Source: Candidatus Nitronereus thalassa (GTDB lineage: Bacteria; Nitrospirota; Nitrospiria; Nitrospirales; UBA8639). From it: a DNA stretch of 64,000 nucleotides. Position numbers and translations under genes: made by a program. Positions 3,001 to 17,640 of the stretch are shown in pieces. The stretch's first letter is position 1. Each line of letters opens with the position of its first letter. The stretch lies in the NCBI RefSeq assembly GCF_032191465.1, contig NZ_JAQOUE010000001.1, positions 3,007,501-3,071,500 on the forward strand, written 5' to 3'. The notes beneath the pieces are model-generated. The model saw only the letters and a list, made by a program, of their open reading frames with translations. It was not told the origin of the DNA and ran no database searches.

Positions 3001-3005
3001 TCCAT
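1..3005 (-). CDS. dabA: DabA-like inorganic carbon transporter subunit (DUF2309), 3' end cut off
   Basis: Reading the minus strand from the ATG at 3005 gives an uninterrupted frame of about 1001 codons running off the window, so the C-terminus is missing. DabA is the cytoplasmic, zinc-containing, carbonic-anhydrase-like subunit of the DAB pump, which works with a NuoL-family partner to trap CO2 as bicarbonate. The expected ligand set is visible: ILCIDVRSE supplies Cys489 and Asp491, and LLCGHGSTSDNNPF followed by LDCGACGG supplies His762 and Cys777. The 2- and 15-residue spacings within each pair match characterised DabA, as I remember it. The stretch between the pairs is about 270 residues, roughly 100 longer than in Halothiobacillus DabA2. 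The gene begins 2 bases after the preceding membrane gene, so it is the last visible gene of the dab operon. Confidence 0.9.
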   Translation of the reverse strand, partial: MDTLTTRQYSESQQMEMRSLVNLAAEVIAYYWPMRTFIHHNILHGLEYLDFDEAIQQGQRFLGGRPYLSNEQFREYFLTGRIRGEELEAALRPLAQDKTVTIGNTRISHLEILKAHMIQGNKEEGPHEENPLLMTLMNRLETILPPPNQDAQAQADVQALGRDVTLSTWCDRVLGTRIVEQINGELIKWCGAFVDEGHAAWGMPYRESSLYHAWKRLAEHDLNGSLLGIPDWTHKVRALPERPEDTILMIFETIGLPKALWMDYLSLQLGALPGWTGFIKWRAEEAGYEWQEVYPASLIKYLAIRLFYESELVRKACQAELGFAGTYDNLLAFMQDQTSVYGLRQARVTGELPRNYIHQVDRLRYGYSGNNNEAWKTLATQYRADMLLENRHKETQTKARNLLGLCEILNLDPATLSNTAPSELQTILSWMDDFPEKLHPPYWLEAFESGYRKSLLQQLRPKIIAKQKTTGLDQVENGEVRPLTQVILCIDVRSEGFRRHLEEIGGYETLGFAGFFAIPFRFRAFGTHHETDQCPVLLKPKHVIREVPRAYQNLEAEKHLAGIQLLQTGHHLLHNLKENVITPYVMVEALGWFFGIPFILKTTFGTWYRELSSWIQRSFAPSIATTLTVNKLTEEEALGMLAAEQRPTIRRALREQLNLSGKKVTQEIVETLRQYALEENNFRGPLPEKYRQALGLTPDQETAFIGILRDHYRIDSRGASDRLHRITQTGFTLTEQVNYVETNLRLMGLTKNFARLVLLCGHGSTSDNNPFESALDCGACGGNHGMPNARTFAFMANKSDIRKLLQKRGITIPQDTYFLAGQVDTTTDAVQFFDLEDVPSTHRHQLSQLILDLEEAGQQNSLERCGRFPDVQKLLSAEMAAREVKNRSLDWSQVRPEWGLSGNAAFIVGRRDLTMGLNLEGRTFLHSYDYQGDPTGKFLQIILTAPGVVIQWISMEHYFSTVDPEIYGSGSKMYHNVTGRIGVMFGTQSDLRIGLAWQTVM

Positions 3006-3007
3006 AT

Positions 3008-4321
3008 TTAAACCTGTGAAATCCCCAAAGATAATTGCACCAAGGAAATTGAAGGGTCGGCAATTCCGAACCAATCCGATGGAGCCATTCCGAGTATGAT
3101 CAAAAGAGCCAATAGGAGGATGAGTGAAACCTGTTCGTAATGATGAAGATCATGCCCGGACCTAGTCCCCGGTGAAGGATGTCCGAATAGCACTTGTTGC
3201 ATCAGCCGAGGGAAATACCAAGAAGCCATAAGCCAGGCCAGAAGAATTACCACGAGGCTTTTTACGGGAGGTGAGGCGATGCCCAACATCATCTCCATGA
3301 AGGCCGAGAAAATGGTAAAGAAAGGAAGTCCCAAGGCGGCGGTAATGAACAAGACAAAAAGTGTAGAGAACCGAGGCATGATGCGTGCTAAGCCGTGGGA
3401 TATTTGTAAATCTATATGTCCAAAACGCGTCCATATGCAATGGTTCCCTAAGAGCAGTCCGCACATCACGAGGTTCAGACCGACCAAAAATCCAACCGCC
3501 CCTGGAGTTACTGATTGCGTGACTGCGGCGTACCACCATACGATCGCACCAAGTGTCATATGGGCATAAGCTACCAAGGTGTCCATCGAGTCCTGAGCCA
3601 ATGCAAGGAACGATCCGTATATGGCGCTGCCAATAGCGAGAACCCAAAGGAGATTGAACAGGCTATCGGGTATGACGGGGAGTAGGTTGATGAAGCCATA
3701 CAATCCCAGACTCGGTAAGAGAACCGCGAGAAACGCGGGAACCATGCCAGGCAATTGGCTCGCAGAGGCTACAAAAACCTTATGAACAGGCAGTAGCGGC
3801 CAGACGATGATGAGTGGGACCAATAACGTCAAGGTCCTGATAGAATCTGGAAGCACCAGGGAAAGAAAGAGTGCAAGAATACCCATAACCAAAATGCCTA
3901 TGGCAAACCAAGGGATTTCTCGGCTTTGCCCCCCATGCCGAATGAACATGAGGATCAGTAATCCAAAAATCCCGGATAACACAATTTGGGTGGAGGGCCC
4001 TTGACTGGCCACATAGCCTAAGCCTAAGCCTGTAAATAACAGGATGAGGCAAAAGGAGATCGAGGCTTCTTTGTTGGGAGGTTGGCCGAGAATGGTTAGT
4101 AATCCGGTCAATATAATTAAGTGCATGAAGAAGAACGAAAAGTTCCAAGGTAACCCTGACATCCAGAGAGGAACGGTCACGATCAGCCAGGTTGTGGTGA
4201 TCATCAGCAGCCCACAAATCTTAAAGGCCTGAGGCCTTGACCAAAAGATTGTTCCCAAAGCGGCACCAAGAACGGGGGTTGCCATCATCAACATGGCTTG
4301 GACCGACCACCATTCCATCAC
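3008..4321 (-). CDS. Degenerate NuoM/MrpD-like membrane protein of the dab cluster
   Basis: A 437-residue, very hydrophobic protein with roughly 12-13 predicted membrane segments. Its second half lines up with the antiporter-like subunits of complex I: LPVHKVFVASASQLPG matches the PFHTWLPDAHSEAPT region of the NuoM encoded at 16135-17640, ALAQDSMDTLVAYAH matches ALAQTDLKKLVAYSS, and the C-terminal WYFPRLMQQVLFG resembles the NuoM tail. The lysines needed for proton transfer in true NuoM (LLKMGGYG and DLKKLVAYS) are replaced (LLPSLGLYG and SMDTLVAYA). It may therefore be a structural or regulatory subunit, not an ion channel; that is inference. The GTG start overlaps the dabB stop by 4 bases (GTGA); an ATG one codon later is possible. 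It sits between dabB and dabA and is surely co-transcribed with both. Confidence 0.7.
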   Translation of the reverse strand: MMEWWSVQAMLMMATPVLGAALGTIFWSRPQAFKICGLLMITTTWLIVTVPLWMSGLPWNFSFFFMHLIILTGLLTILGQPPNKEASISFCLILLFTGLGLGYVASQGPSTQIVLSGIFGLLILMFIRHGGQSREIPWFAIGILVMGILALFLSLVLPDSIRTLTLLVPLIIVWPLLPVHKVFVASASQLPGMVPAFLAVLLPSLGLYGFINLLPVIPDSLFNLLWVLAIGSAIYGSFLALAQDSMDTLVAYAHMTLGAIVWWYAAVTQSVTPGAVGFLVGLNLVMCGLLLGNHCIWTRFGHIDLQISHGLARIMPRFSTLFVLFITAALGLPFFTIFSAFMEMMLGIASPPVKSLVVILLAWLMASWYFPRLMQQVLFGHPSPGTRSGHDLHHYEQVSLILLLALLIILGMAPSDWFGIADPSISLVQLSLGISQV

Positions 4322-6033
4322 GGCCTCCTCCAGCCTGCGAGGCTATGGTCGAGGCGTTTTGCGAAGTGAATGATATTCTGCGACACGGTGTTATAGAACT
4401 GATCAACATAAAGGCGGTTCATAAAAAGGAGGAAGAGTTGAGGCCTCAGGGCGGAAATCCATCCAGGGAGAAAAATTCTTTGCCCACTTGCCCTGGTATA
4501 AAGAACGGCCCAACTTAGGATAATCAGGGCTGTGACTAGGATCACCAATACATCAAACAATCCGCCATGGAGCGCGGCGACTTGGAAATACTGATGGGCG
4601 ACGCCAGGTTGGGGATATAAAAAGTAGGTGAAGGTTTCTGCTCCCCATAAATAGGTGAAAACGATCATGACCAAGGCCAGCAACATGACCCCGACGACTT
4701 TCCAGGACGCCTCATAGAGTCGATATAAGCTAAACATTGCTTGGGAAGCTGTTACCCAAGCGAAGAATAAAAAGATGACTGCTCCTTGGGCGTCTCGCAA
4801 GGGAATTTTCAATATCCCATGTGCAGCCAAGAGAATAATCAACGGCAAGAGCAATGTGACACCGACTCCCGTAATCCACGTGGCTCGTGAAAATGGTATT
4901 GCGGCTCCACCATGGCTGATCATCGGCTTCTTTGGTTCGTGGCGTGACGCATGGATGACATTTCCTGCATTCAAAAATAGCGTGGCTTTGAACAGCCCGT
5001 GGGCCATGAGGTGAAAAATGGCGAGCGCAAATGCCCCCAATCCGCATTCCATAATCATGTAGCCCATTTGGGCCATGGTCGAAAATCCCAATGTTTTTTT
5101 GATGTCGTTTTGAACCAGCATCATGCTGGCCCCTAAGATCACTGTAAGCATGCCTATGGCAAAGACCACGTGTAGTGTGGTGGGAGATAGGCCATACAAA
5201 GGAGCCAAACGGTTCAACAAAAACCCTCCGGCATTCACGATGCCAGCATGCATGAGGGCAGATACGGGCGTGGGGGTGTCCATGGTGTCTGGCAACCAAA
5301 CGTGCAAGGGAAATTGGGCGGACTTGGCCATCGCCCCGACAAACAATAACAGTGTAATAACAGTGACGGCGCTGACTGACAGGTCACCTCCAGGCCAAAG
5401 AGAAATCATTGTCGCGGTCTCAGCGGCACGGGCAAAGAGTTCTGAGAATTCTAGAGTTCCATATAGGTGATAGGTCAGAAGAATTCCGCCCAAAAATGCC
5501 ACGTCGCCCACTCTATGGACGATTAATGTCTTAAAAGCGGAGTCTACAGCTGGTGGATGAGAAAAGTTGTAGGCGAGTAGGAGATACAATACCCAACTGA
5601 GCAATTGCCAACACACAAACAGCATGAAGAGGTTGGCACTGGAGACCAAACAGAGAATGACAAAAGTCATCAAACCCAGCAGCGCATAAAATCTGGCATA
5701 CCCTCGTTCTCCCTGGAGATAGTTGATGGAGAAGAGGTGGATAATGGTGCTGACGCCGGTAATAAGTACGATCATCACAGCACTCAGGCGATCGATGAAC
5801 AAGCCCAAATGAAACCAACCGGGGGCTTCAGAAGAAAGAGATGGCAAGCCGATGCGAATTGGCCCATCCACACTGACGGCATAGACCAGCCAAAGGGATC
5901 CAAGAAAAGCCATGACTAAAGCAGGTACTCCTACTTTGTAACTCTGTTCTCCTAATTGTTTTCCGAACAGGCCGATGATAAAGGCTGAGCTAATTGGTAG
6001 CAGGGGAATGAGAATGGCGATGAATATCGTCAT
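4318..6033 (-). CDS. dabB: DabB-like proton-conducting membrane subunit (NuoL family)
   Basis: A 571-residue NuoL/ND5-family protein with many membrane helices. The conserved core is intact: MAKSAQFPLHVWLPD, TPTPVSALMHAG and DIKKTLGFSTMAQMG carry the lysines and histidine of an ion-translocating antiporter-like subunit. In DAB systems such a protein couples proton or sodium influx to CO2 hydration by DabA, which is encoded two genes downstream. It is shorter than complex I NuoL and lacks a long C-terminal lateral helix, as is usual for DabB. The start is the ATG at 6033; the upstream 241 bases separate it from purK and contain a dyad at 6072-6089. A stand-alone Mrp or NuoL protein is the alternative, but the DabA neighbour settles it. 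Confidence 0.85.
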   Translation of the reverse strand: MTIFIAILIPLLPISSAFIIGLFGKQLGEQSYKVGVPALVMAFLGSLWLVYAVSVDGPIRIGLPSLSSEAPGWFHLGLFIDRLSAVMIVLITGVSTIIHLFSINYLQGERGYARFYALLGLMTFVILCLVSSANLFMLFVCWQLLSWVLYLLLAYNFSHPPAVDSAFKTLIVHRVGDVAFLGGILLTYHLYGTLEFSELFARAAETATMISLWPGGDLSVSAVTVITLLLFVGAMAKSAQFPLHVWLPDTMDTPTPVSALMHAGIVNAGGFLLNRLAPLYGLSPTTLHVVFAIGMLTVILGASMMLVQNDIKKTLGFSTMAQMGYMIMECGLGAFALAIFHLMAHGLFKATLFLNAGNVIHASRHEPKKPMISHGGAAIPFSRATWITGVGVTLLLPLIILLAAHGILKIPLRDAQGAVIFLFFAWVTASQAMFSLYRLYEASWKVVGVMLLALVMIVFTYLWGAETFTYFLYPQPGVAHQYFQVAALHGGLFDVLVILVTALIILSWAVLYTRASGQRIFLPGWISALRPQLFLLFMNRLYVDQFYNTVSQNIIHFAKRLDHSLAGWRRP

Positions 6034-6274: not shown

Positions 6275-7495
6275 TCATGCAGAGATTTCCAATGGATCTA
6301 ATGGCGGGCGAGGGGAGTCCTCTCCTAGTTCAGCATCTGAGAGATTTCCTTTTGGAGAATTTTCAAGCGTGAGACTTTGGAGTAGCACATTGGCCTGATC
6401 CAATGCGTCATCCGGATTTTCTGCTGGGAGAAGAAGATGCCCCATTTTTCTTCCCGGCCTTGGCTGGTCTTTTCCATACAGGTGAAGTTGGATGTGGGGA
6501 TAAGCGAAGAGGCGATCCCACCGTGGGGGGCCGTTTTGCCAAAGATCCCCAAGTAGGTTCACCATAAGTACGGGGTAGAGGAGCGTAGGGTCACCCAACG
6601 GTAATCCGCAAATGGCCCGGAGGTGTTGCTCGAACTGAGAGGTGTAACAGGCGCCAAATGTGAAATGTCCACTGTTATGAGGGCGTGGAGCAATTTCATT
6701 GATCAGAAGCGTGTTGTCTTCAAGGAGAAAAAATTCAACGGCCATGACCCCGCAGTAGTCAAGAGCCTCGGCGATGGAAACGGCGAGCTCTTCCGCGCGT
6801 GTCCGAGCGGATTCTGTGATGCGAGCAGGAACTATTGTGGTATGAAGCTTATTGAGCTGATGAACGTTTTCCGCAAGGGGGTACAGTCGAATTTCCCGTT
6901 TGAGATTTCGGGCCAGAACCACCGACAATTCTATCTTGAATGGTGCGATGGCTTCCAGAATGGATGGAACTTTACCTACCTCGTCCCAAGCTGCAAGGAG
7001 GTCGTCTCTGCTGCCCACTCGGAATTGTCCCTTGCCGTCATATCCTGATCGGCGTTTTTTTAATATCGAAGGGAAACCCACGCGTTGAGCTGCGTCTGTT
7101 AAACAGGACCGATCCTTCACCGAGGCAAAGGAGGTTTGTGGGTAATTCTTATCTTGAAGAAACTGTCGTTGGACCAATCGATCCTGGACAAGTGCGAGGA
7201 CAAAAGACGAAGGCTGAGTCGTCTTCACTGATTCCAACTGTGCAAGAAGCTTCCATGGCACGAGTTCTGTTTCAATAGTGAGTACATCCACTTGAGCCGC
7301 AAATTCCAAAAGGCGTTGCGTGTCGGTCAGTTCTGATTGCACGGAGAAATCCGCAAACTGAGCTGCCGGACAATGTTCCGTCGGATCAAGAATGCCAACC
7401 CGATACCCCATTCTTCGACCTTCCATGGCCAGCATGCGCCCCAGTTGTCCTCCACCCAAGATTCCGATGGTTTCCCCAGGAAGAATCATAGTCAT
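6275..7495 (-). CDS. purK: N5-carboxyaminoimidazole ribonucleotide synthase
   Basis: PurK condenses 5-aminoimidazole ribonucleotide with bicarbonate at the expense of ATP, giving N5-CAIR for purine synthesis. The 406-residue protein is an ATP-grasp enzyme of normal length. It shows the N-terminal dinucleotide-like loop [11 protein letters not shown] (about residues 11-21), the ATP-grasp segment [13 protein letters not shown] (about 145-157), and the metal and substrate segment [12 protein letters not shown] (about 265-276). The start codon overlaps the purE stop by 4 bases (ATGA), so the two are translated together. Its product is the substrate of PurE, encoded just upstream. Bicarbonate is a substrate, which makes the dab genes next door at least a sensible neighbour, though this may be coincidence. 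Confidence 0.95.
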
Positions 7496-7992
7496 GTGAG
7501 CTCCTCTGGTAGCTGGCGAGTTGTCTGTACATGGTAAGCCCGGAGCCGTTGGCGGATTTCTTGATCAGAAACCGCCAGAATGGCCACAGCCTGTAAGGCG
7601 GCGTTTGCGGCACCATCTTCACCGATGGCATGTGTGCCCACCGGGACCCCCTTCGGCATCTGCACTATGGAGAGAAGCGAGTCCATTCCTTTGAGGGACC
7701 GAGACTGTACTGGAACTCCCAGGACCGGAAGAATCGTTTTTGCTGCGGTCATACCTGGCAAATGTGCTGCTCCGCCCGCTCCCGCGATGATCACGCGAAG
7801 TCCTCGTGTCTCTGCATTAGTGGCAAAGTCGACCATCCGATCCGGTGTTCGGTGGGCCGACACAATGGAGCATTCATGAGGAATCGAAAGCTCAGTTAAT
7901 ATTTCACTAGCATGACGCATAGTTTCCCAATCGCTTTGGCTTCCCATGATAATCGCAACGAGCGGAGAAGAATGTGATGTTTCAGCGTTCAT
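7492..7992 (-). CDS. purE: N5-CAIR mutase, class I
   Basis: PurE moves the carboxyl group of N5-CAIR to carbon 4 to make CAIR. The 166-residue protein has the class I signature: [14 protein letters not shown] near the N-terminus for phosphate binding, SAHRTPDRM with the catalytic histidine (about residues 44-52), and [14 protein letters not shown] (about 70-83). Length and motifs are ordinary. It lies 38 bases downstream of a receiver-only response regulator on the same strand and overlaps purK by 4 bases. Confidence 0.96.
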
Positions 7993-8030: not shown

Positions 8031-8411
8031 TCACAAAAGATATCGAAACAAGGTCATCGCCAATTGGTCAAGTTGTATGGGTTTGACCAGAAAGCTTTGG
8101 ACACCACGGTCGCATAGACGCCTTGCCAGCGTTGGTGTAAACACCTGACTCATCATCACAATTGGGACCAGCGGAGCAATTTGTCTGATAGTGTTTACGG
8201 CGTCTAAGTTCTCCAATCGAGCTAAGTCTACATCCAAGAGCACCAAATCTATCCGGTGTGTGCGAATTGCATCCAAGGCTTCAGGAACAGACTCCACAGG
8301 AATTGGAATGCAATGGAGCCGCTTAACCAAATCGCAAGCTATGGTACGGCACTTGGTGTTTTTTTCCGCAACAACGATTCGAAACTTTTTTTGCTTTCCT
8401 GCTCTGGGCAT
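8031..8411 (-). CDS. Receiver-only response regulator (CheY-like)
   Basis: A 126-residue single receiver domain with no output domain. The phospho-acceptor is Asp60 (LVLLDVDLA), the switch serine is Ser88 (IVMMSQ) and the conserved lysine is Lys110 (FLVKP). The usual N-terminal pair of acidic residues is reduced to a single Glu16 (VVAEKN), so magnesium binding may be altered. No histidine kinase is encoded nearby. Stand-alone receivers act by protein contact or as phosphate sinks; the partner cannot be told from this sequence. It is transcribed towards purE, 38 bases away, and divergently from the LysR gene at 8675. The 263 bases between the two start codons should hold both promoters; I see nothing definite there. 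Confidence 0.85.
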   Translation of the reverse strand: MPRAGKQKKFRIVVAEKNTKCRTIACDLVKRLHCIPIPVESVPEALDAIRTHRIDLVLLDVDLARLENLDAVNTIRQIAPLVPIVMMSQVFTPTLARRLCDRGVQSFLVKPIQLDQLAMTLFRYLL

Positions 8412-8674
8412 CGGTGGTGTGACTTCCAGGGGTCATTGCCGACAAGAATCCTTTTCGCCCTGAGGTGCCAAGCCTCCATGGAATGGGATGCCCCATGATA
8501 GTCGGGGGAACAGATCCTCATTCATTATGCCGTTGTAGCCATCCAGGTTTTGAAAAATTTCAGAAGGATGAATGGCCCTTTCCAATTCTAAATGTCTTAG
8601 CATAAGCGTTTTTGCATTGAATAATAGATAAATTGGCCGTGACACATCGGAAAATTCGATGTATAACTTCTGGC

Positions 8675-9601
8675 ATGGATTGGCTCAATTATCATCATTT
8701 GTATTATTTCTGGACGGTCGCAAGAGAGGGGAGCATTGCAAAGGCTTGCGAAGAGCTTCGGTTGGCACAGCCGACCATCAGTGGCCAGTTGCGCATGCTG
8801 GAAGATGATCTCGGAGAGAAATTATTTAGGCGGGCTGGGCGTGGGTTGGTCCTCACCGATGTTGGGCAAATGGTCTATCGCTATGCGGAAGAGATCTTTT
8901 CACTGGGAAAAGAAATCAAGGAAGTGGTGAGAGGAGCCAAACCTGAACGCTCTCCCAAATTGGTGGTGGGAATCACGGAAGTCCTGCCCAAGCTGGTGGC
9001 CTACCGTCTCCTAGAGCCAGCTGTGAAGGGGACGGATCCCATTGGACTGATTTGCTGGGAAGGAAAGTTGGAAAATTTATTGGCCGAACTCGCTATTCAT
9101 CGTCTGGATATTGTATTGGCGGATGCGCCGTTGCCGCCCATGTTAGGCATTCGGGCGTATAGCCACCAACTCATTGAATGTGGGGTGTCGATCATGGCTC
9201 CTCCTCGAATGGCTCCCAAATATCGCCGGCGATTTCCTCGGTCGCTTCAGGGTGCTCCCTTCTTGCTTCCGACAGATAATACCGTGTTGCGCCGGTCGTT
9301 AGAGCATTGGTTTGAAAGCCATGCGATGCATCCAAAAGTGGTGGGAGAATTTGAAGACAGTGCCTTGCTAAAAGCCTTTGGCCAAGCAGGATGCGGAGTC
9401 TTTGCCATACCTACGTTGATCGAAGACGAAGTGCAACGTCAGTATCGAGTCCATCTTGTTGGTCGAGTGCCGACAATTCGCGAAAGATTTTATGCCATTT
9501 CCATTGAACGCAAGATTAAGCATCCCGCCGTTCGGATGATCTCTCAAGCGGCGCAGGAGACCACCAGGGGAAAAATTAATGGGGGGAACTCCTATGGATG
9601 A
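8675..9601 (+). CDS. nhaR: LysR-family regulator, NhaR-like
   Basis: A 308-residue LysR-type regulator from the ATG at 8675. An in-frame TTG at 8633 would add 14 residues, but MDWLNYHHLYYFW is the typical beginning of NhaR. The winged helix-turn-helix spans about residues 1-65 (GSIAKACEELRLAQPTISGQ), followed by the effector-binding domain. NhaR activates sodium/proton antiporter genes in response to sodium in enterobacteria. Here the gene stands directly upstream, on the same strand, of an Mrp cation antiporter operon, which supports a matching role, though the true target is unproven. The 3' end is followed by about 460 bases before mrpE that hold a structured stretch and a terminator. Confidence 0.8.
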   Translation: MDWLNYHHLYYFWTVAREGSIAKACEELRLAQPTISGQLRMLEDDLGEKLFRRAGRGLVLTDVGQMVYRYAEEIFSLGKEIKEVVRGAKPERSPKLVVGITEVLPKLVAYRLLEPAVKGTDPIGLICWEGKLENLLAELAIHRLDIVLADAPLPPMLGIRAYSHQLIECGVSIMAPPRMAPKYRRRFPRSLQGAPFLLPTDNTVLRRSLEHWFESHAMHPKVVGEFEDSALLKAFGQAGCGVFAIPTLIEDEVQRQYRVHLVGRVPTIRERFYAISIERKIKHPAVRMISQAAQETTRGKINGGNSYG

Positions 9602-9788
9602 GAGCTGTTAAGAGTCGGCCATATTCCTCACATCGTTTCATCGAATCTGCATATCATAATGCCTATTTTGTGGCTCAAAGATTTTTACAAATTTTCTTCT
9701 TCCGATACGAAATTCCTAAGCACTTTCTTGCTTGGACATGCGGACATCTTAGTGCTCAAAGGACTGAGGAACGAAAATGATTTCTGTT

Positions 9789-9999
9789 GTTACCGGAGCG
9801 TAACGTTGGTATAAGGAAGCCAAGGAAGCTAATGATGGAAAGAATCGGTCGGCGATGTTGGTAAGAACCCTTGTCGAACCGATTGCCCATTTATTTGGCT
9901 GGGAGGATCAAAGGCTCTTGGCCTAGGGACTGGGAACAGGACATGCCAACCAGAGGCTGATCGAATATTTGATTCGAAGCACTCGGTTGGCTTTTTTTT
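9789..9999 (+). ncRNA. Candidate structured leader or small RNA before the Mrp operon
   Basis: The 458-base gap between nhaR and mrpE contains no credible gene but several hairpins in a row. GTTAC/GTAAC closes a 6-base loop at 9789-9804. A long arm pairs 9843-9855 (AATCGGTCGGCGA) with 9871-9884 (TTGTCG, a one-base bulge, ACCGATT), with an inner GGT-AAGA-ACC at 9860-9869. A two-tier terminator hairpin follows at 9945-9999. A hairpin series ending in a terminator about 60 bases before the first gene is the layout of a riboswitch or attenuator, but an independent small RNA or simply the nhaR 3' region are possible. I do not recognise it as a known class. The remainder of the gap (9602-9788 and 10000-10059) shows only a small GGGAT/ATCCC hairpin at 10027-10039 next to the mrpE ribosome site. 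Confidence 0.45.
9945..9999 (+). terminator. Intrinsic terminator between nhaR and mrpE
   Basis: GCCAACC (9945-9951) pairs with GGTTGGC (9985-9991); a GAG/CTC pair and an inner TCGAA/TTCGA (9961-9965, 9973-9977) extend the stem, and eight T residues follow at once. This is a textbook rho-independent terminator on the plus strand. It either ends nhaR transcription or serves as the switchable terminator of a leader for the Mrp operon. Confidence 0.8.
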
Positions 10000-10059
10000 A
10001 GGAACTCGAATTTAGGTCAATTTTTTGGGATAAGATCCCAGGAAAATATACGGCCAAAC

Positions 10060-10554
10060 ATGAGACCAATTTCTTCTCAATTCCTTTTTCTAAAAACCCT
10101 TGCCTTATTTGTTGTGTGGATCATGCTGTCGGGATCTTTTGATCCCATCCATTTGGGATTGGGATTTGCCCTATCCTTTTTGGTGGCCTGGCTGAATTCT
10201 GGGCATTCTCCGTTCGTTCCTCGGTTTCGCTTATGGGGAAAGATCCTTTGGTATCTCCCCTGGCTCTTCATCCGCATCGTGCAGAGTAGTCTACATGTGA
10301 CAAGGTTGATCCTTGACCCACGCCTTCCCATTCATCCAAGGCTGATTCAATACACGTCAACCCTCCGAGAACCTCCGGCGGTGGTGTTGTTGGGTAATTC
10401 TATTACCTTGACGCCAGGGACGATTACGGCAGAGGTGAATGGCAATGTCCTTTTGGTCCATGCCTTGGATGAATTGTCGGCTCAGGATGTGACGAGCGGA
10501 CGTATCGAATCAAAAATCGCTGAAGTATTCAAGGAAGAGGTAGGGAGATCATGA
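10060..10554 (+). CDS. mrpE: Mrp antiporter subunit E
   Basis: A 164-residue membrane protein of the MrpE/MnhE family: an N-terminal pair of membrane helices, a PWLFIRIVQSSLHVTRLI segment typical of the family, and a soluble C-terminal part with LGNSITLTPGTITAEV (about residues 111-126). MrpE belongs to the small subunits of the multi-subunit sodium/proton antiporter and is needed for full activity. It is the first gene of a nine-gene operon and overlaps mrpF by 4 bases. The ribosome site is weak (AGGA about 15 bases before the ATG), and a small hairpin lies next to it, which may matter for control. Confidence 0.92.
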   Translation: MRPISSQFLFLKTLALFVVWIMLSGSFDPIHLGLGFALSFLVAWLNSGHSPFVPRFRLWGKILWYLPWLFIRIVQSSLHVTRLILDPRLPIHPRLIQYTSTLREPPAVVLLGNSITLTPGTITAEVNGNVLLVHALDELSAQDVTSGRIESKIAEVFKEEVGRS

Positions 10555-10817
10555 GAGATTTCTTTCTTTTTGTCATGGTGGTATTGACTGGACTGATCGG
10601 CGTCTATCTCTATCGCGTGCTTCAGGGGCCGACGATTTTCGATCGTGTGTTAGGACTGAATGGCATATCCACCAAGGCAATCATTTTATTGGTCGTCATT
10701 GGAATGGTCTATGATCGGGCTGAAATGTTTGTGGATATTTCCACAGGCTATGCCCTTTTGAATTTAGTCGGGGCTCTCGCCGTGGCCAAATTTCTTGAAC
10801 AAAAGGGATTACCGTAG
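10551..10817 (+). CDS. mrpF: Mrp antiporter subunit F
   Basis: An 88-residue protein with three membrane helices. The family features RVLQGPTIFDRVLGLN and DISTGYALLNLVGALAVAKFLE are present. MrpF is one of the small hydrophobic subunits of the Mrp complex. It starts within the mrpE stop (ATGA) and ends one base before the mrpG ATG, so translation is coupled on both sides. Confidence 0.93.
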   Translation: MRDFFLFVMVVLTGLIGVYLYRVLQGPTIFDRVLGLNGISTKAIILLVVIGMVYDRAEMFVDISTGYALLNLVGALAVAKFLEQKGLP

Positions 10818-10818
10818 C

Positions 10819-11118
10819 ATGGAAATACTGTCGATGGTGTTGATCCTGTTAGGATTATTTTTTCTTGTTGTTGCGGCCATTGGGGTAGTGCGATTACCAG
10901 ATGTGTTTTCTCGCTCGCATGCGGTTTCATTGACAGACTCACTTGGGGCGTTTTTGCTGTTAACCGGTCTGGCATTACATGAAGGATCGACCGTGAATTT
11001 TTTCAAAATTCTTGCGGTGTTGGCCCTGCTGTATCTACAAAATCCGGTGATTTCTCATGCGACGCTTCGGGCCGCGGTTCGCGCCGGGTTGAAACCGTGG
11101 GATGGAGAAAAACGATGA
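10819..11118 (+). CDS. mrpG: Mrp antiporter subunit G
   Basis: A 99-residue protein with three membrane helices and the MrpG/PhaG signature GVVRLPDVFSRSHAVSLTDS (about residues 23-42). The ATG at 10819 lies one base after the mrpF stop; an in-frame TTG at 10795 inside mrpF would lengthen it by 8 residues and is less likely. Its 3' end overlaps the following gene by 4 bases. Confidence 0.92.
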   Translation: MEILSMVLILLGLFFLVVAAIGVVRLPDVFSRSHAVSLTDSLGAFLLLTGLALHEGSTVNFFKILAVLALLYLQNPVISHATLRAAVRAGLKPWDGEKR

Positions 11119-11657
11119 CGTTTAGTTTCGAAATTCCCCTGCTCCTTCTTCTGCTCGTCACCGCGGCTGGTGCGATTTTAGTGAAAGATTTGATGAGTGC
11201 TATTTTATTATTAGGCTCCTATGGATTTTGTCTTTCGTTGGTCTGGGCATGGCTGGGAGCCGTGGATGTCGCGTTCGTCGAGGCCGTGGTCGGCGCAGGG
11301 TTAGCGACCGTGCTGTTTCTTCTTACGTTGTTTGGGACTGCTCCGAAAGATGGGCGGCTTCGTCGACCACCGCCCCCCATCGCGGTGCTTATCGGCCTAC
11401 CTCTTCTTGGGGCCCTGATGTTATACGCGGCGAACGATCTGCCAACATTCGGGGATCCCAATTCTCCTTCAAATTCTTATGTGTCGCCAGTTTATTTAGA
11501 ACGCAGTTACTTAGACACCAAGACTCCGAACGTAGTGACTGCGGTATTAATGGATTATCGGTCTTTGGATACCATGGTGGAAACCGTGGTGATTTTTACG
11601 GCGGGACTCGTCTGTGCTTTATTATTGCGGAGAAAATCTCATGGTACGTCCTCATGA
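11115..11657 (+). CDS. DUF4040/MbhD plus MbhE-like subunit (detached MrpA C-terminus)
   Basis: A 180-residue membrane protein. The first half (LVKDLMSAILLLGSYGF through VDVAFVEAVVGAGLATVLFL) is the DUF4040/MbhD domain. The second half (TPNVVTAVLMDYRSLDTMVE, about residues 139-158) is the MbhE-like segment found at the MrpA C-terminus or MrpB N-terminus. In classical Mrp operons these parts are fused to the large NuoL-like MrpA; here they are a separate gene and the NuoL-like part is encoded last but one in the operon. The ATG at 11115 overlaps the mrpG stop (ATGA); a GTG at 11097 is less likely. It overlaps mrpB by 17 bases. Confidence 0.85.
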   Translation: MTFSFEIPLLLLLLVTAAGAILVKDLMSAILLLGSYGFCLSLVWAWLGAVDVAFVEAVVGAGLATVLFLLTLFGTAPKDGRLRRPPPPIAVLIGLPLLGALMLYAANDLPTFGDPNSPSNSYVSPVYLERSYLDTKTPNVVTAVLMDYRSLDTMVETVVIFTAGLVCALLLRRKSHGTSS

Positions 11658-12093
11658 CAGTATTATTGTTCAATCTTTAGGCCGATTTCTCATTCCGGTC
11701 ATCCAAATTTTTGGGTTGTATGTGCTGGTGTTTGGTCAATATGGACCAGGTGGCGGATTTGTGGGCGGTGTGATTCTGGGCACGAGCATGATTTTAGCCA
11801 TTCTTATTTTTGGTCACGATGCCTCACGGAGCCGCATAGCTAAAAAATTGTTGCATGGGGATGGAGTCGGCATGCTGATTTATGCAGGGGTTGGGGGCTT
11901 GTGTCTTATTGGAGGAGGGGAATTTTTAAATTATGGCAATTTGGAAATCCCCGGTATGGAAACCGCCACGCGACGTTTTATTGGAATTCTGTTGACCCAA
12001 ATTGGTGTGGCCGCCGATGTGGCCGTAACCGCCATTTCCATTGTTTTGAGTTTATCCGACCAGGATATCATTGAGGATTCTGCCAATGGCTGA
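11641..12093 (+). CDS. mrpB: Mrp antiporter subunit B
   Basis: A 150-residue membrane protein of the MnhB family with four helices. FGQYGPGGGFVGGVILGTSM (about residues 34-53) is the family hallmark. I chose the ATG at 11641 (MVRPHDSII), which fits family N-termini; frames reaching further upstream lie deep inside the previous gene. It overlaps the previous gene by 17 bases and mrpC by 8 bases. Confidence 0.92.
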   Translation: MVRPHDSIIVQSLGRFLIPVIQIFGLYVLVFGQYGPGGGFVGGVILGTSMILAILIFGHDASRSRIAKKLLHGDGVGMLIYAGVGGLCLIGGGEFLNYGNLEIPGMETATRRFIGILLTQIGVAADVAVTAISIVLSLSDQDIIEDSANG

Positions 12094-12463
12094 AGTATTG
12101 TCGTCGATTTTTTACCGACCAAATTTTCTCACCTTTGTCATTATTTTTCTTTGGGGTTTCTACATTATGGTCACCCGATTCAATTTGGTGAAAAAACTGG
12201 TGGGCATGTATCTTGTTCAAACCAGCGTCATTTTTTTTCTCGTCTCCACCAGTGCTAAAAACGGGGGGACGGTTCCCGTCCTTCTTTCCACGACAGAACC
12301 CGTTCAGGCGATTCAGTATACCAATCCCCTCCCTCATGTATTGACGCTCACGGCGATTGTCGTGGGTGTGGCGACCTTGGGGGTGTCCTTGGCGTTGGCA
12401 GCGGCGATTTACCGAACCTATGGTAGTCTCGACGAAGAAGAAATTTTAAAAAAATTAGAATGA
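12086..12463 (+). CDS. mrpC: Mrp antiporter subunit C (NuoK-like)
   Basis: A 125-residue three-helix protein of the NuoK/MnhC family, with KLVGMYLVQTSVIFFLV and NPLPHVLTLTAIVVGVATLG, the helices that carry the functional region in NuoK. The loop between helices two and three (TSAKNGGTVPVLLSTTEP) is slightly longer than in NuoK, as is normal for MrpC. ATG at 12086 inside the mrpB end; stop overlaps mrpD by 4 bases. Confidence 0.92.
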   Translation: MAEVLSSIFYRPNFLTFVIIFLWGFYIMVTRFNLVKKLVGMYLVQTSVIFFLVSTSAKNGGTVPVLLSTTEPVQAIQYTNPLPHVLTLTAIVVGVATLGVSLALAAAIYRTYGSLDEEEILKKLE

Positions 12464-13929
12464 TTCACCAACTTCCCGTTCTGCTGTTTCTGCTTCCCCT
12501 CTTTGCGGCAATTTCAATGCCGGTGGTGTGTCTGCGGCATAATGAACGATGTGTGCCAATTGCCTTGTCGGTGTCCACCGTCATGGTGCTGTTGTCAATC
12601 CTCAATCTAGTCATGGTCTTGAAGTATGGGGAAGTGCGGTATGCGTTCAGCGGGTGGGCCCCGCCCCTGGGGATTGAATGGGTGGCCGATGGTCTCGCGA
12701 GTCTGATGTTGGTGGCGTTGTCCTTTCTGGGACTTGTGACGCTGTTGTTTTCTCGTGCAACGGTTCCGACGGACCTGGGCCATGGGGTCGTGTATTTTTA
12801 TACCCTGATTCTTTTGTTGATCTCGGCGTTAACCGGGATTGTATTTGCGGGCGACCTCTTTAATCTTTTCGTGTTTTTAGAGGTCGCGGCTTTGGCGAGT
12901 TATGGTCTGGTGGGCGTGTCCGGCGGACGAGCGTTAGTGGCGGCCTTTCGCTATCTCATTTTAGGAACTTTGGGAGCTTCGTTCTATTTATTGGGCGTAG
13001 GTTATTTTTATGCGGCGACTGGAACCCTCAATATGGCGGATATCTCGGAGCAGTTGCCATATTTATTGACCTCCAAAGCCGTAGTGGGTGGCCTCCTATT
13101 TATGTTCATTGGCCTGAGCATCAAAATGGCGCTAGTGCCACTCCATGGATGGTTGCCGGATGCGTATACCTATGCGCCGGAATCGGTGTCCCCCATTCTG
13201 GCTTCCCTCATGACGAAAGTGGCTCTATTCGGTTGGATTCGAATTATCTTTTGGGTCTTGGGAGCAGATGCCGTCGTCTATCATATCCCCATTCTCTTGA
13301 TGATCAACACCCTCGGCATCCTGGCCGCGGTCATCGGAGCCTTTCTGGCATTAACCCAAAATGATGTGAAGCGAATGTTTGCCTATGGCGGCATCTCCCA
13401 TATCGGAATCATTCTTATTGGCGTGAGTCAAGGAAACCGAACCGGATTTGCGGGGGGAGTTTTCTATTTGCTGAATGATGCCATTATGCAAGCTGCGCTG
13501 TTTTTTTTGGCTGGGCTGGCCGTGGTGCAATATGGCGTGCGAGGGGTGGACGATTTATGGAAATTGCGCGGTCAGTCGGGCTGGATCACCGGAGGATTTA
13601 TTATTGCGGCGATGTCGATGATTGGGCTTCCTCCAACCGGCGGATTTTTTGGCAAATGGTACATCATATTGGGATCGCTGGAGGCTAATAATTATCTGGC
13701 GGTAGGAGCGGTGCTCCTCTCCACGGTGTTGACCCTAGCCTACTTTGTCAAACTATTTGAGCGATTGTTTCGGGAGCCTCCAGGCGCTTCCGACCTCCCC
13801 TGGAAAACGATGCCTCTACCTATTCAATGGAGTTTGGGCGTGGTGTCGGTGGTCATGATTGCGTTGGGCGTGTGGAGTGATCCCATCGTGGGATTCTTAC
13901 TGAGTAAGACATTGCCGATGGGACTGTAA
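12460..13929 (+). CDS. mrpD: Mrp antiporter subunit D (antiporter-like)
   Basis: A 489-residue antiporter-like subunit with about 14 membrane helices. The functional core is intact: an acidic helix (LFNLFVFLEVAALASYG), PLHGWLPDAYTYAPESVSP, LMTKVALFGWIRI with the membrane lysine, and LTQNDVKRMFAYGGISHIG. MrpD is one of the two ion-translocating large subunits of the Mrp antiporter. The start overlaps mrpC by 4 bases and the next gene follows after 6 bases. Confidence 0.92.
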   Translation: MIHQLPVLLFLLPLFAAISMPVVCLRHNERCVPIALSVSTVMVLLSILNLVMVLKYGEVRYAFSGWAPPLGIEWVADGLASLMLVALSFLGLVTLLFSRATVPTDLGHGVVYFYTLILLLISALTGIVFAGDLFNLFVFLEVAALASYGLVGVSGGRALVAAFRYLILGTLGASFYLLGVGYFYAATGTLNMADISEQLPYLLTSKAVVGGLLFMFIGLSIKMALVPLHGWLPDAYTYAPESVSPILASLMTKVALFGWIRIIFWVLGADAVVYHIPILLMINTLGILAAVIGAFLALTQNDVKRMFAYGGISHIGIILIGVSQGNRTGFAGGVFYLLNDAIMQAALFFLAGLAVVQYGVRGVDDLWKLRGQSGWITGGFIIAAMSMIGLPPTGGFFGKWYIILGSLEANNYLAVGAVLLSTVLTLAYFVKLFERLFREPPGASDLPWKTMPLPIQWSLGVVSVVMIALGVWSDPIVGFLLSKTLPMGL

Positions 13930-13935
13930 TCTTTC

Positions 13936-16026
13936 ATGTCTGTTTTTGTGTTTATCCCGCTTCTGCCGTTATTGGCCTCGCTTGCCTTGGTGGTGGGGGG
14001 ACGACGGTGGGGAGACCAGGGCCATCGAATCGCCATTCCTGCGATGGGGTTGTCGTTTGCTCTGTCGGTGGGAGCCTTTCTCGAGATATTGAATCATGGC
14101 CCAATCTCCATTCCTCTCTATCAGCTCCTTCAGTCGGGTCCGCTTGCCATTCAGGTTGGGCTGTATCTTGATCAACTGACCGTCTTGCTGTTGTTGTTAG
14201 TCACTGGGGTCAGCGGTGTGGTGCACGTCTTCTCTTCACGCTACATGATTGGGGATCCTCGGTACAATCGGTTTTTTGCCGTGATCTCCTTCTTTACCTT
14301 TTGCATGTTGATGTTGGTGATGAGCAGTAATCTGCTGATCATGTTCGTGTTTTGGGAGATGATGGGGCTGTGCTCCTATTTGCTGATTTCTCATTGGGCT
14401 CAACGGACTCCTGCCGTTCAAGCCGCGACGAAGGCCTACTTGGTGAATGCCATTGCGGATGTGGGGCTGGGTTTTGGCATCATCCTGACCTTTGCCACCT
14501 TTGGAACGCTTGATATTCCTACTATTTTGGCGCAGGCGGAAAGTGTGAAAGACCAGACGGTCAATATTTTGGGGTGGATGGGTGGAGACTTTCAGATCCA
14601 TCCGGTGACTGTCATTCCCTTCTTTTTATTCATGGGGGCGATGGGCAAGTCCGCCCAAATGCCTTTTCATGTCTGGTTACCGTTTGCCATGGAGGCTCCG
14701 ACACCGGTATCGGCCTTGATTCATGCCGCGACCATGGTCAATGCGGGTCCCTTTCTGTTAGTGCGTCTGAGCCCACTCCTAGTCCTTTCACCATCGGCGA
14801 TGAACTTTATCGCGGTCGTGGGTGCGGTGACGGCCTTATTTGCGGCGATGGTGTCCATGACCCAATCGGATATCAAAAAGAACCTGGCCTATTCTACGAT
14901 TAGTCAAATTGGGTTTATGATCATGACGTGTGGGATTGGCGCCTTCGTGGCTGCAATTTTTCATTTATTAGCGCATGGATGTTTAAAAGCGTTTTTGTTT
15001 TTGTCTACTGGCAATGCATTGCGAGCTGTGCAGTCCCATCACCATGGTGAGCCGCAATCGGACCTACCTACAAAAGAAAAAACATGGCTTTCCCTTGGCG
15101 CGTTGATGCTGGCCTGCCTGCCACCGTTTGTGATTTTCTCTGGGCCGTATGAGGTCTTGTGGGCGGCACAGGGGTTTGCGTCCGCTCGAACGGTATTTTG
15201 GGTCATGGGATTGCTGACGGTCTTTTTTACGGCGGTGTATATCTACCGTGGCATTTGGTCTCTGTTCCGGGTTGGTCTAAGCATGCGGGATCGTGAAACA
15301 GGAATCGCGAAACCAGCAGGCCCGCGGTTGTTCTCTCCTTCCCATTTGTTGATGGTGTTGGCGAGTGGGGGAGTGATGGGCGCAATTCTCATGGGGATCT
15401 GGTCTTGGTTCGTTCAATTTTTGACTCCGGCTCTCGCGTTGCCTCCTTCATCGGTTCCGGGAATTGTTACTCCCACAGAAGGGATGGTGTGGATAGTCGG
15501 GCCGTTGGGGGTTGCGGTGCTTGGATGGATTTATGCGTATTCTCGACCGTCCGTGTCATACAAACATGGTGACACCGAGTCTGAGTGGAAAAGAGCGGCG
15601 TATGTGCTTTTCCTCAATAAAGGATATTTCGATGAAATATATGAGGCATATCTTGTTCGTCCGACCCTACGATTCTCGCATTGGCTTTGGCGTCGCATTG
15701 ATGTTCAGGGTGTGGATGGCATCGTGTATGGGCTGGCAACCGTCTCGCTCCGGTTGGCCAGGTGGCTTTGGCAGGTGGTCGACCTCAAGGGCATTGATCG
15801 TTTAACGATTAATATCGGCAGGCAAAGTGTCACCCTCGGACAATGGCTTTGGGAACTAATTGATATTCGTGGGTTAGGAAAAACCATGGATCAGGTAGGA
15901 GTCAGCGCGGATGCGACGGGGCAGTATTTAGATGAAGTCGGGCCTCGTACGTTGCAACATCATTTGCTCGTGATGATTTTTTGGTTGGTGCTCGCCATTG
16001 CCCTGCTCTATATACTGGTGAAATAG
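13936..16026 (+). CDS. NuoL-like large subunit of the Mrp operon
   Basis: A 696-residue NuoL/ND5/MrpA N-domain protein. Motifs: LFWEMM-type acidic helix (VFWEMMGLCSYLLISHW), MGKSAQMPFHVWLPFAMEAP, TPVSALIHAATMVNAG and DIKKNLAYSTISQIG, all typical of an active antiporter-like subunit. The C-terminal part differs from MrpA: it has no DUF4040 domain but instead three units of exactly 27 residues beginning WLW at about residues 583, 610 and 637 (WLWRRIDVQGVD, WLWQVVDLKGID, WLWELIDIRGLG), then a final membrane helix. This resembles the lateral-helix region of NuoL. Together with the separate DUF4040 gene it replaces MrpA. A gap of 108 bases without a gene separates it from the NuoM-like gene. Confidence 0.88.
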   Translation: MSVFVFIPLLPLLASLALVVGGRRWGDQGHRIAIPAMGLSFALSVGAFLEILNHGPISIPLYQLLQSGPLAIQVGLYLDQLTVLLLLLVTGVSGVVHVFSSRYMIGDPRYNRFFAVISFFTFCMLMLVMSSNLLIMFVFWEMMGLCSYLLISHWAQRTPAVQAATKAYLVNAIADVGLGFGIILTFATFGTLDIPTILAQAESVKDQTVNILGWMGGDFQIHPVTVIPFFLFMGAMGKSAQMPFHVWLPFAMEAPTPVSALIHAATMVNAGPFLLVRLSPLLVLSPSAMNFIAVVGAVTALFAAMVSMTQSDIKKNLAYSTISQIGFMIMTCGIGAFVAAIFHLLAHGCLKAFLFLSTGNALRAVQSHHHGEPQSDLPTKEKTWLSLGALMLACLPPFVIFSGPYEVLWAAQGFASARTVFWVMGLLTVFFTAVYIYRGIWSLFRVGLSMRDRETGIAKPAGPRLFSPSHLLMVLASGGVMGAILMGIWSWFVQFLTPALALPPSSVPGIVTPTEGMVWIVGPLGVAVLGWIYAYSRPSVSYKHGDTESEWKRAAYVLFLNKGYFDEIYEAYLVRPTLRFSHWLWRRIDVQGVDGIVYGLATVSLRLARWLWQVVDLKGIDRLTINIGRQSVTLGQWLWELIDIRGLGKTMDQVGVSADATGQYLDEVGPRTLQHHLLVMIFWLVLAIALLYILVK

Positions 16027-16134
16027 CGAATGGAACGGTTGGCGTAAAACCTGGGTGATGTAGAAAAATGGGAATTTCGGTACATTATTTTCGCATAAAA
16101 TCTGGCTTCTCAAGCAAGTCTGAATAGGCATTCC

Positions 16135-17640
16135 ATGACCGTGTTTGCCGATCACATGATTAGTTGGTTGATAGCTCTTCCCTTTATCGGAATGGGCCTT
16201 CTGGCGTTTTTCCGTGATGAAGAGATGATTCGACGTGCGGCGTTGGTTATCACGATGATCGAGTTTGGTCTGGGGGTTGTGTTGTGTCTTCGGTTTGATT
16301 ACCAAGACTCCGGCATGCAGTTTCTTGAGCGCATGGCATGGATGCCCACGTTCAATATCCACTATGCGGTAGGGGTTGATGGGATCAGTATTCTTTTGGT
16401 GTTTCTCACCACCTTGCTTTGTCCCTTGTGTATCTTATGTTCATGGAATTCGATCACGACCAGAGTTCGTGCCTTCATGATGCTCATCCTGTTAGTTGAA
16501 GGCGCCATGATTGTGGTGTTTACAGCTCTCGATTTATTTCTATTTTTCATGTTGTGGGAACTCACGATGATTCCCATGTATTTCCTGATCATATTATGGG
16601 GGGGACCAAATCGGATCGCCGCAGGGATAAAATTCGTCTTGTATAGCCTTACCGGGAGCCTAATGTTGCTGCTTGGTATTCTCGGGCTTTTCCTGGAAGG
16701 GGGGCATACGTTTGATATTCTTGCCCTCGGTCAACATACGTATTCCTCCAAGGTGCAATTCTGGATTTTCTTAGCGCTGTTCTTGGGGTTTGCCATAAAA
16801 ATGCCCATGGTGCCGTTTCATACTTGGTTGCCGGATGCGCATTCCGAAGCGCCGACGGCCGGCAGTGTGATTCTGGCTGGTGTCTTACTGAAAATGGGAG
16901 GGTACGGATTTCTTCGATTTTGCCTCCCAATTTTTCCTGAAGCCTCTGCCCTATTTGCTCCGTACATTTTATGGTTGTCCGTGTTGGCGATTGTGTACGG
17001 CGGGTACATGGCCCTGGCGCAAACCGATCTCAAAAAACTGGTTGCGTATTCTTCGGTGTCCCATATGGGGTTTGTGACCCTAGGAATTTTTGTCTTCAAT
17101 AGCCAGGGCATCCAAGGGGCTATTTTGCAAATGTTTAATCATGGCATTACCACGGGAGCGTTATTTCTTTCCGTGGGACAATTGTATGACCGAACCCATA
17201 GCCGCGCGATCGGTGACTACGGTGGCTTGCATAAACCCATGCCAAAATTCGTGGCGTTCTTTTTCTTGTTTTCTGTGGCCTCCTTTGGGCTGCCCGGCAC
17301 CTGTAATTTTATCGGAGAATTTTTAGTCTTGGTGGGAACGTCTTACACAAGTTTTGCCATGGTTCTCCTGTCCATGGGGGGCATTGTCCTGGCCGCAGCC
17401 TACATGCTGTGGATGTTGCAGCGAGTCACGTTAGGTGAGCCGAATACTAAAGCGGCGGGACTTCTTCCGGATCTGAATCGTCGGGAATTGGTGACTGTGA
17501 CTCCCTTGGCTATTCTAGTGTTGGTGATTGGATTGTATCCTGGTCCTTTGATGGAAATGATGGATGCGAGCGTGACCCAATTGGTGAACCAAGTGGGGGG
17601 CGTCCAACTCGCGCTTCATTCTCAAGACTTCCAGCCTTGA
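16135..17640 (+). CDS. NuoM-like large subunit of the Mrp operon
   Basis: A 501-residue NuoM/ND4-family protein of ordinary length with about 14 helices. It shows LFFMLWELTMIPMYF with the key glutamate, PFHTWLPDAHSEAPTAGS, GVLLKMGGYGFLRF and QTDLKKLVAYSSVSHMG with the key lysines, and QLYDRTHSRAI, the NuoM loop. No other complex I genes are present, so it most likely serves the Mrp-like complex as an additional ion-translocating subunit; orphan complex I use is the alternative. It ends the operon; the 174 bases after it hold a CCCCAT/ATGGGG hairpin (17698-17719) without a T-run. Confidence 0.88.
   Translation: MTVFADHMISWLIALPFIGMGLLAFFRDEEMIRRAALVITMIEFGLGVVLCLRFDYQDSGMQFLERMAWMPTFNIHYAVGVDGISILLVFLTTLLCPLCILCSWNSITTRVRAFMMLILLVEGAMIVVFTALDLFLFFMLWELTMIPMYFLIILWGGPNRIAAGIKFVLYSLTGSLMLLLGILGLFLEGGHTFDILALGQHTYSSKVQFWIFLALFLGFAIKMPMVPFHTWLPDAHSEAPTAGSVILAGVLLKMGGYGFLRFCLPIFPEASALFAPYILWLSVLAIVYGGYMALAQTDLKKLVAYSSVSHMGFVTLGIFVFNSQGIQGAILQMFNHGITTGALFLSVGQLYDRTHSRAIGDYGGLHKPMPKFVAFFFLFSVASFGLPGTCNFIGEFLVLVGTSYTSFAMVLLSMGGIVLAAAYMLWMLQRVTLGEPNTKAAGLLPDLNRRELVTVTPLAILVLVIGLYPGPLMEMMDASVTQLVNQVGGVQLALHSQDFQP

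Follow-up and report, generated by a model that had tools for sequence, protein, structure and literature searches.

The dab operon at the left end of the window (the whole stretch of 64,000 nucleotides of Candidatus Nitronereus thalassa analyzed here) raises the question of which role a third membrane protein, encoded between dabB and dabA, could play in a CO2-hydrating complex. To our knowledge DAB complexes have been described as heterodimers, and the sole structure has been solved for a heterodimer. The features concerned are:

3008–4321, reverse strand: third membrane subunit (437 aa, GTG start), with a NuoM fold but lacking the proton-path residues
4318–6033, reverse strand: dabB, NuoL-like subunit serving as proton conduit, DAB2 key residues all present; 571 aa
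1–3005, reverse strand: dabA, catalytic β-carbonic-anhydrase-like subunit; extends at the 3′ end for about 230 bases beyond the window, to genome position C1:3007272
4318–4321, reverse strand: GTGA, the 4-base overlap of the dabB stop and the third-subunit start

The GTGA overlap is preceded by GGAGG, and the ATG of dabA at position 3005 follows 2 nt past the TAA of the third gene. A previous inspection of the letters alone (the sequence-only reading) had reported a NuoM-like frame of 437 residues with a 4-base overlap to dabB and a 2-base gap to dabA, all of which is confirmed on the sequence. Apart from the third gene and dabB, nuo genes are absent from the operon. Directly 3′ of dabA and on the same strand lies a PII gene (PF00543, 86 bits; L093:12862-13197, equivalent to C1 3006861-3007196, outside the window), while purK and purE (window 6275–7992) are found directly upstream of dabB, again on the same strand. 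The AIR carboxylation route of purine synthesis has been related to CO2 supply (PMC10880623).

Sequence tools detect a NuoM likeness of the third subunit in the TM7–14 region only. PF00361 (Proton_antipo_M) matches residues 160–359 alone, above its gathering threshold (34.1 versus 21.5 bits), and is matched by 33 of 38 third-subunit homologues at E≤0.001; the best NCBIfam is NuoM (TIGR01972, NDH_I_M), at 91.3 bits below the curated cut-off of 263.8 bits. The AlphaFold model, for which an alignment of the 38 homologues served as input, contains 14 TM helices (pLDDT 89.7, pTM 0.89) and depicts a complete NuoM fold, superposing on E. coli NuoM (3rko_C) with a Z-score of 40.4 and 2.5 Å over 415 residues. 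The third subunit would descend from a NuoM-type antiporter subunit of which the fold has been kept and proton carriage lost. It thus shares with NuoM/ND4 of complex I the full 14-TM architecture and a recognizable sequence over TM7–14, but differs from it in the absence of equivalents of K234, K265, H322, H348 and E407, in the location of its gene outside a nuo operon and in that half of the protein suffices in the DabB fusions described below.

The proton route of E. coli NuoM comprises E144/K234, K265, H322 and E407 (PMC9271201). According to the alignment, K234 is replaced by V173, K265 by S204, H348 by L282 and E407 by F341 in the window protein, while at H322 one alignment shows a leucine and a separate one a gap. 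The TM5 glutamate (E144) is absent as well, a loss less firm than the others because around TM5 the N-terminal part of the alignment cannot be relied on. None of about 120 homologues keeps the path residues, which answers the question, raised by the sequence-only reading, of whether orthologues share the loss: charged residues or histidines account for 2 of 599 residues at the five positions K234, K265, H322, H348 and E407. The K234 position is occupied by Leu, Met, Phe, Ala or Ile, the K265 position mostly by Ala, Val, Thr or Ser, the H322 position mostly by Phe, the H348 position mostly by Val or Ile and the E407 position by Phe, Leu, Tyr or Ile; the commonest replacements are K7 by Leu (102/120 homologues), H10 by Phe (100/120) and E12 by Phe (94/120). 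Nearly all type-specific residues are kept in the NuoM, NuoN, NuoL and MrpD controls of the same genome. As the path residues are missing family-wide, their loss is ancestral.

The earlier claim that both functional lysines have disappeared holds for the window protein, where the loss is even wider than claimed, but the second of the two was only in part correctly assigned. The TDLKK lysine is not the TM7 lysine of NuoM; it matches K310 of DAB2 DabB, and its position is taken by Asp in the window protein but by Arg in 74 of 120 homologues. The gene at 16135–17640 that had served as the genuine NuoM for this comparison is NuoM-like, but belongs to an operon of Mrp type. Further members of the NuoM family are encoded elsewhere in the genome, at C1 1.01 Mb and 1.76 Mb.

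Away from the path, the histidine of the TM7 loop is kept in 113 of 120 homologues. Lys or Arg at position 239 (118/120 orthologues) and Arg at position 245 (99/120), both at the cytoplasmic end of the predicted helix TM9 and off the mid-membrane path, are missing in the window copy, which is therefore somewhat more degenerate than its relatives. From the orthologues, residue 239 possibly points to a charge-based role near the cytoplasmic side. Within the family of the window genome, the third proteins of same-locus relatives are only about 28% identical and have a shorter N-terminus, the accompanying DabBs being 59–66% identical.

The partner proteins are intact. The dabA product is a full PF10070 protein (822 bits) homologous to 9rd0_A, with a conserved zinc site (C489, D491, H762 and C777) and, in its transmembrane finger, E588 aligned with Glu444, a position that is Glu in all DabB-linked DabAs. 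The dabB product is homologous to 9rd0_B; K235, K310, H339, H343 and K347 are kept in 176–177 of 177 sequences, with agreement at H260 as well. Given that the DabB key residues as well as the zinc site and the finger glutamate of DabA are retained, proton-driven CO2 hydration can presumably run as in DAB2 of Halothiobacillus neapolitanus (DabA2–DabB2, 9rd0). As in DAB2, no glutamate is present in TM5 of DabB. Its position is occupied by Gln in every DabB linked to a third gene and by His, Val or Ile in two-gene DabBs, a pattern that derives from only few phylogenetic events and would fit a changed lateral face of DabB. In contrast to the window operon, DAB2 forms a 1:1 heterodimer that contains no NuoM-like subunit, and the window DabA is longer owing to an insert of about 100 aa between its two catalytic halves. 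The two-subunit composition does not apply here: the third gene is part of the operon, and in 14 loci it is fused to dabB.

Strong third-gene matches number 87 in a set of 296 Nitrospirota genomes. Of these, 82 immediately precede a listed DabA in the same orientation, and the remaining five are accounted for by contig ends or by DabA copies absent from the list. The order dabB–third gene–dabA is conserved in essentially all 80 named loci, i.e. wherever the contig is long enough, including those of Nitrospira (Ca. N. defluvii), Nitrosomonas nitrosa Nm90 and Nitrosomonas sp. Nm51. Tandem dabB genes occur in 24 of the 80 loci (L113-L192, e.g. L117:4246-7977). Both tandem DabBs keep the proton-path residues, and the position of DAB2 S256 is always Thr in the first and always His in the second copy, which identifies them as specialized paralogues.

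In the 14 fusion loci the part of the third subunit joined to DabB is its C-terminal half (residues ~143–418, TM7–14). The carriers belong to several Nitrospirota families, to Ca. Scalindua and to a MAG labelled Deltaproteobacteria. The fused DabBs form one clade of the DabB tree (100/99), so that a single fusion event suffices. In the fusion model, for which pTM is only 0.70, the C-terminal half superposes on residues 188–459 of ND4 with a Z-score of 30.8 and 2.4 Å. At the level of sequence, these natural fusions are strong evidence that the third subunit and DabB would reside in one complex, and together with the conserved gene order they support the three-part DAB variant postulated at the outset.

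Functional dab clusters lacking the gene in close relatives had been named as counter-evidence to this variant, and in part they exist. Two-gene DABs with intact DabA and DabB occur in the same taxonomic order. They constitute a sister clade that shares its family, and often the very genomes, with the main Nitrospira group; its DabAs are 46–51% identical to that of the window. A further family has two-gene DABs of shorter length. Since two-gene DABs exist and DAB2 works as a heterodimer, the third subunit is no general DAB requirement; it characterizes a single DAB lineage. One gain with subsequent loss in the two-gene clade and at least two gains both fit the unresolved tree. Three loci (L039, L099 and L133) that had appeared to encode two-gene DabBs with the TM5 Gln were rejected, the third gene being present and long overlapping or split frames having misled. 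In L072, L077 and L088, DabAs of the two-gene clade are found without a recognizable DabB within 1.5 kb upstream.

The third protein is probably a lineage-specific DAB (DAC) subunit of nitrite-oxidizing and some other bacteria. It would conduct no protons, dock on DabB in the way NuoM is attached to NuoL, and act structurally or as an insulator. Within complex I, NuoM turns its C-terminal half towards the TM5 side of NuoL; the fusions retain precisely this half, and docking on DabB is favored for this reason. Also where the two are separate polypeptides, the third subunit may associate with the TM5 face of DabB, the contact being made by its C-terminal half (TM7/8–14). DabB and the finger helix of DabA would stay the sole proton path, and the third subunit may stabilize or insulate the DabB–DabA assembly. 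Wild-type DAB2 fell apart in purification and was unstable without an engineered fusion (PMC13144422), which makes a stabilizer plausible. In complex I, one model has E407(M) act on the ion pair of NuoL, opening K229(L)/D178(L) (PMC9271201). Co-variation between DabB and the third subunit (APC-corrected mutual information, 110 pairs, Neff 45) yielded noise, with no helix pair prominent. Of the structural or gating role suggested by the sequence-only reading, the structural part is the best-supported reading, and gating remains a suggestion.

The predominance of hydrophobic replacements, which would line the former proton channel with Leu, Val and Phe, also allows for a conduit guiding CO2 through the membrane to DabA. 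The model for this is the tip of cyanobacterial NDH-1MS (NdhF3–NdhD3–CupA), in which the channel of NdhF3 is now non-polar and has been proposed as a CO2 passage (PMC6981117). Like this tip, DabB, the third subunit and DabA combine a NuoL-like, a NuoM-like and a CO2-hydrating cytoplasmic subunit, with one antiporter-like subunit having a non-polar former proton channel. There, however, the NuoL-like NdhF3 is the non-polar subunit and NdhD3 keeps its proton channel, the cytoplasmic subunit is CupA instead of DabA (PF10070), and the assembly is attached to a redox complex, of which the dab operon holds no further genes. Furthermore, the CO2 tunnel T1 of DAB2 runs from DabA to bulk solvent and not via the membrane subunit (PMC13144422), the fusions with TM7–14 only cannot form a full channel, and hydrophobic substitution would be expected of a purely structural subunit as well. 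A CO2 conduit, the chief competing reading, is thus considered unlikely, and delivery of CO2 from the membrane to DabA in the manner proposed for NdhF3 quite unlikely; if true, the three-part DAB would represent a second, independent proton channel turned gas channel.

A regulatory or gating function, for instance as a PII docking site or a conformational lever, could be read from the PII gene directly after dabA and from conserved charged loop residues outside the membrane core (R299, D302, R383, D391, E396 and K/R239). In the accessible part of the 2017 COGNAT study, though, PII genes stand beside dab operons with no third membrane gene mentioned (PMC5700660), so that PII need not depend on the third subunit, and no conserved regulatory-site signature was found in the latter. 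This function is therefore regarded as quite improbable.

The homology to NuoM, the second intact DabB in 24 of the 80 loci and the COGNAT proposal that the number of membrane subunits follows the number of ions (PMC5700660) would suit an additional ion pump that increases the ion:CO2 stoichiometry, yet this is extremely unlikely in view of the practically uncharged path positions of about 120 homologues and of fusions devoid of the TM4–8 half-channel; the stoichiometry idea may apply to the tandem DabBs instead. Equally remote is the reading as an old NuoM that is decaying and survives in the operon by chance: the third gene does evolve faster than its neighbors and is split into two frames in one genome, but 18 pairs of relatives give a dN/dS of about 0.14 (dabB 0.09, dabA 0.08), which rules out decay for the family, a signature of P175, P178, G206, W262, G301, G310, M315-P316, P333, G380 and E396 is invariant, and fusions and gene order are conserved across several phyla. 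The conserved residues also include W262/W263 and W363/W368. The split gene (L099:5228-6476, genome G253, a single contig) reflects a frameshift or a sequencing error. The initial notion of a dead antiporter-like subunit that is nevertheless kept is therefore borne out by the family-wide path-residue loss, the gene order and the DabB fusions.

No description of the third subunit was found in the open-access literature searched. MpsABC of Staphylococcus aureus is likewise a three-gene operon with DabB and DabA homologues, but MpsC is dispensable and not collocated outside staphylococci (PMC6689103), as judged from its published description. The COGNAT study, as far as accessible, places NuoM-family genes near ybcC (dabA), in clade C operons with COG0659 and COG1008 (PMC5700660). 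Clade C thus resembles the window in having a NuoM-family gene near a DabA gene, but its order (ybcC upstream of nuoL, with SulP and NuoM) fits that of the SulP–DabA–Mrp–NuoL–NuoM cluster of this genome family and not dabB–third gene–dabA; as a prior description of the third gene it was rejected. The non-operonal, lowly expressed nuoL and nuoM genes of a Nitrospira transcriptome (PMC6606698) may be dabB and the third gene, and the larger DAB has probably entered annotations so far as scattered complex I genes. This larger DAB, with up to three antiporter-like subunits, is encoded by most Nitrospira, which have a major part in nitrification. With a proton-dead subunit and half-antiporter fusions at hand, the docking and transport parts of the antiporter fold become separately testable, and the natural fusions are candidates for stable complexes on which CO2 capture could be studied structurally.

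The neighboring cluster mentioned above is split in this genome. A SulP transporter gene followed by a second DabA gene (1009 aa; L093:5572-7203 and 8038-11067, C1 2999571-3005066) lies 2.4 kb left of the window. This DabA has no adjacent DabB, and in 10 of 10 such SulP-linked DabAs the finger Glu is Asp. Window positions 10060–17640 hold an Mrp-type operon, followed by genes for NuoL (696 aa, with a long extension at the C-terminus) and NuoM, the products of which are a possible membrane partner of the SulP-linked DabA. In relatives the Mrp–NuoL–NuoM operon is found directly downstream of SulP–DabA, so that here the dabB–third gene–dabA operon separates the two parts of the cluster. Next to the SulP–DabA pair, four genes for small heat-shock (HSP20-like) proteins and one for an HtrA-like protease were recognized by eye (L093:751-4777).
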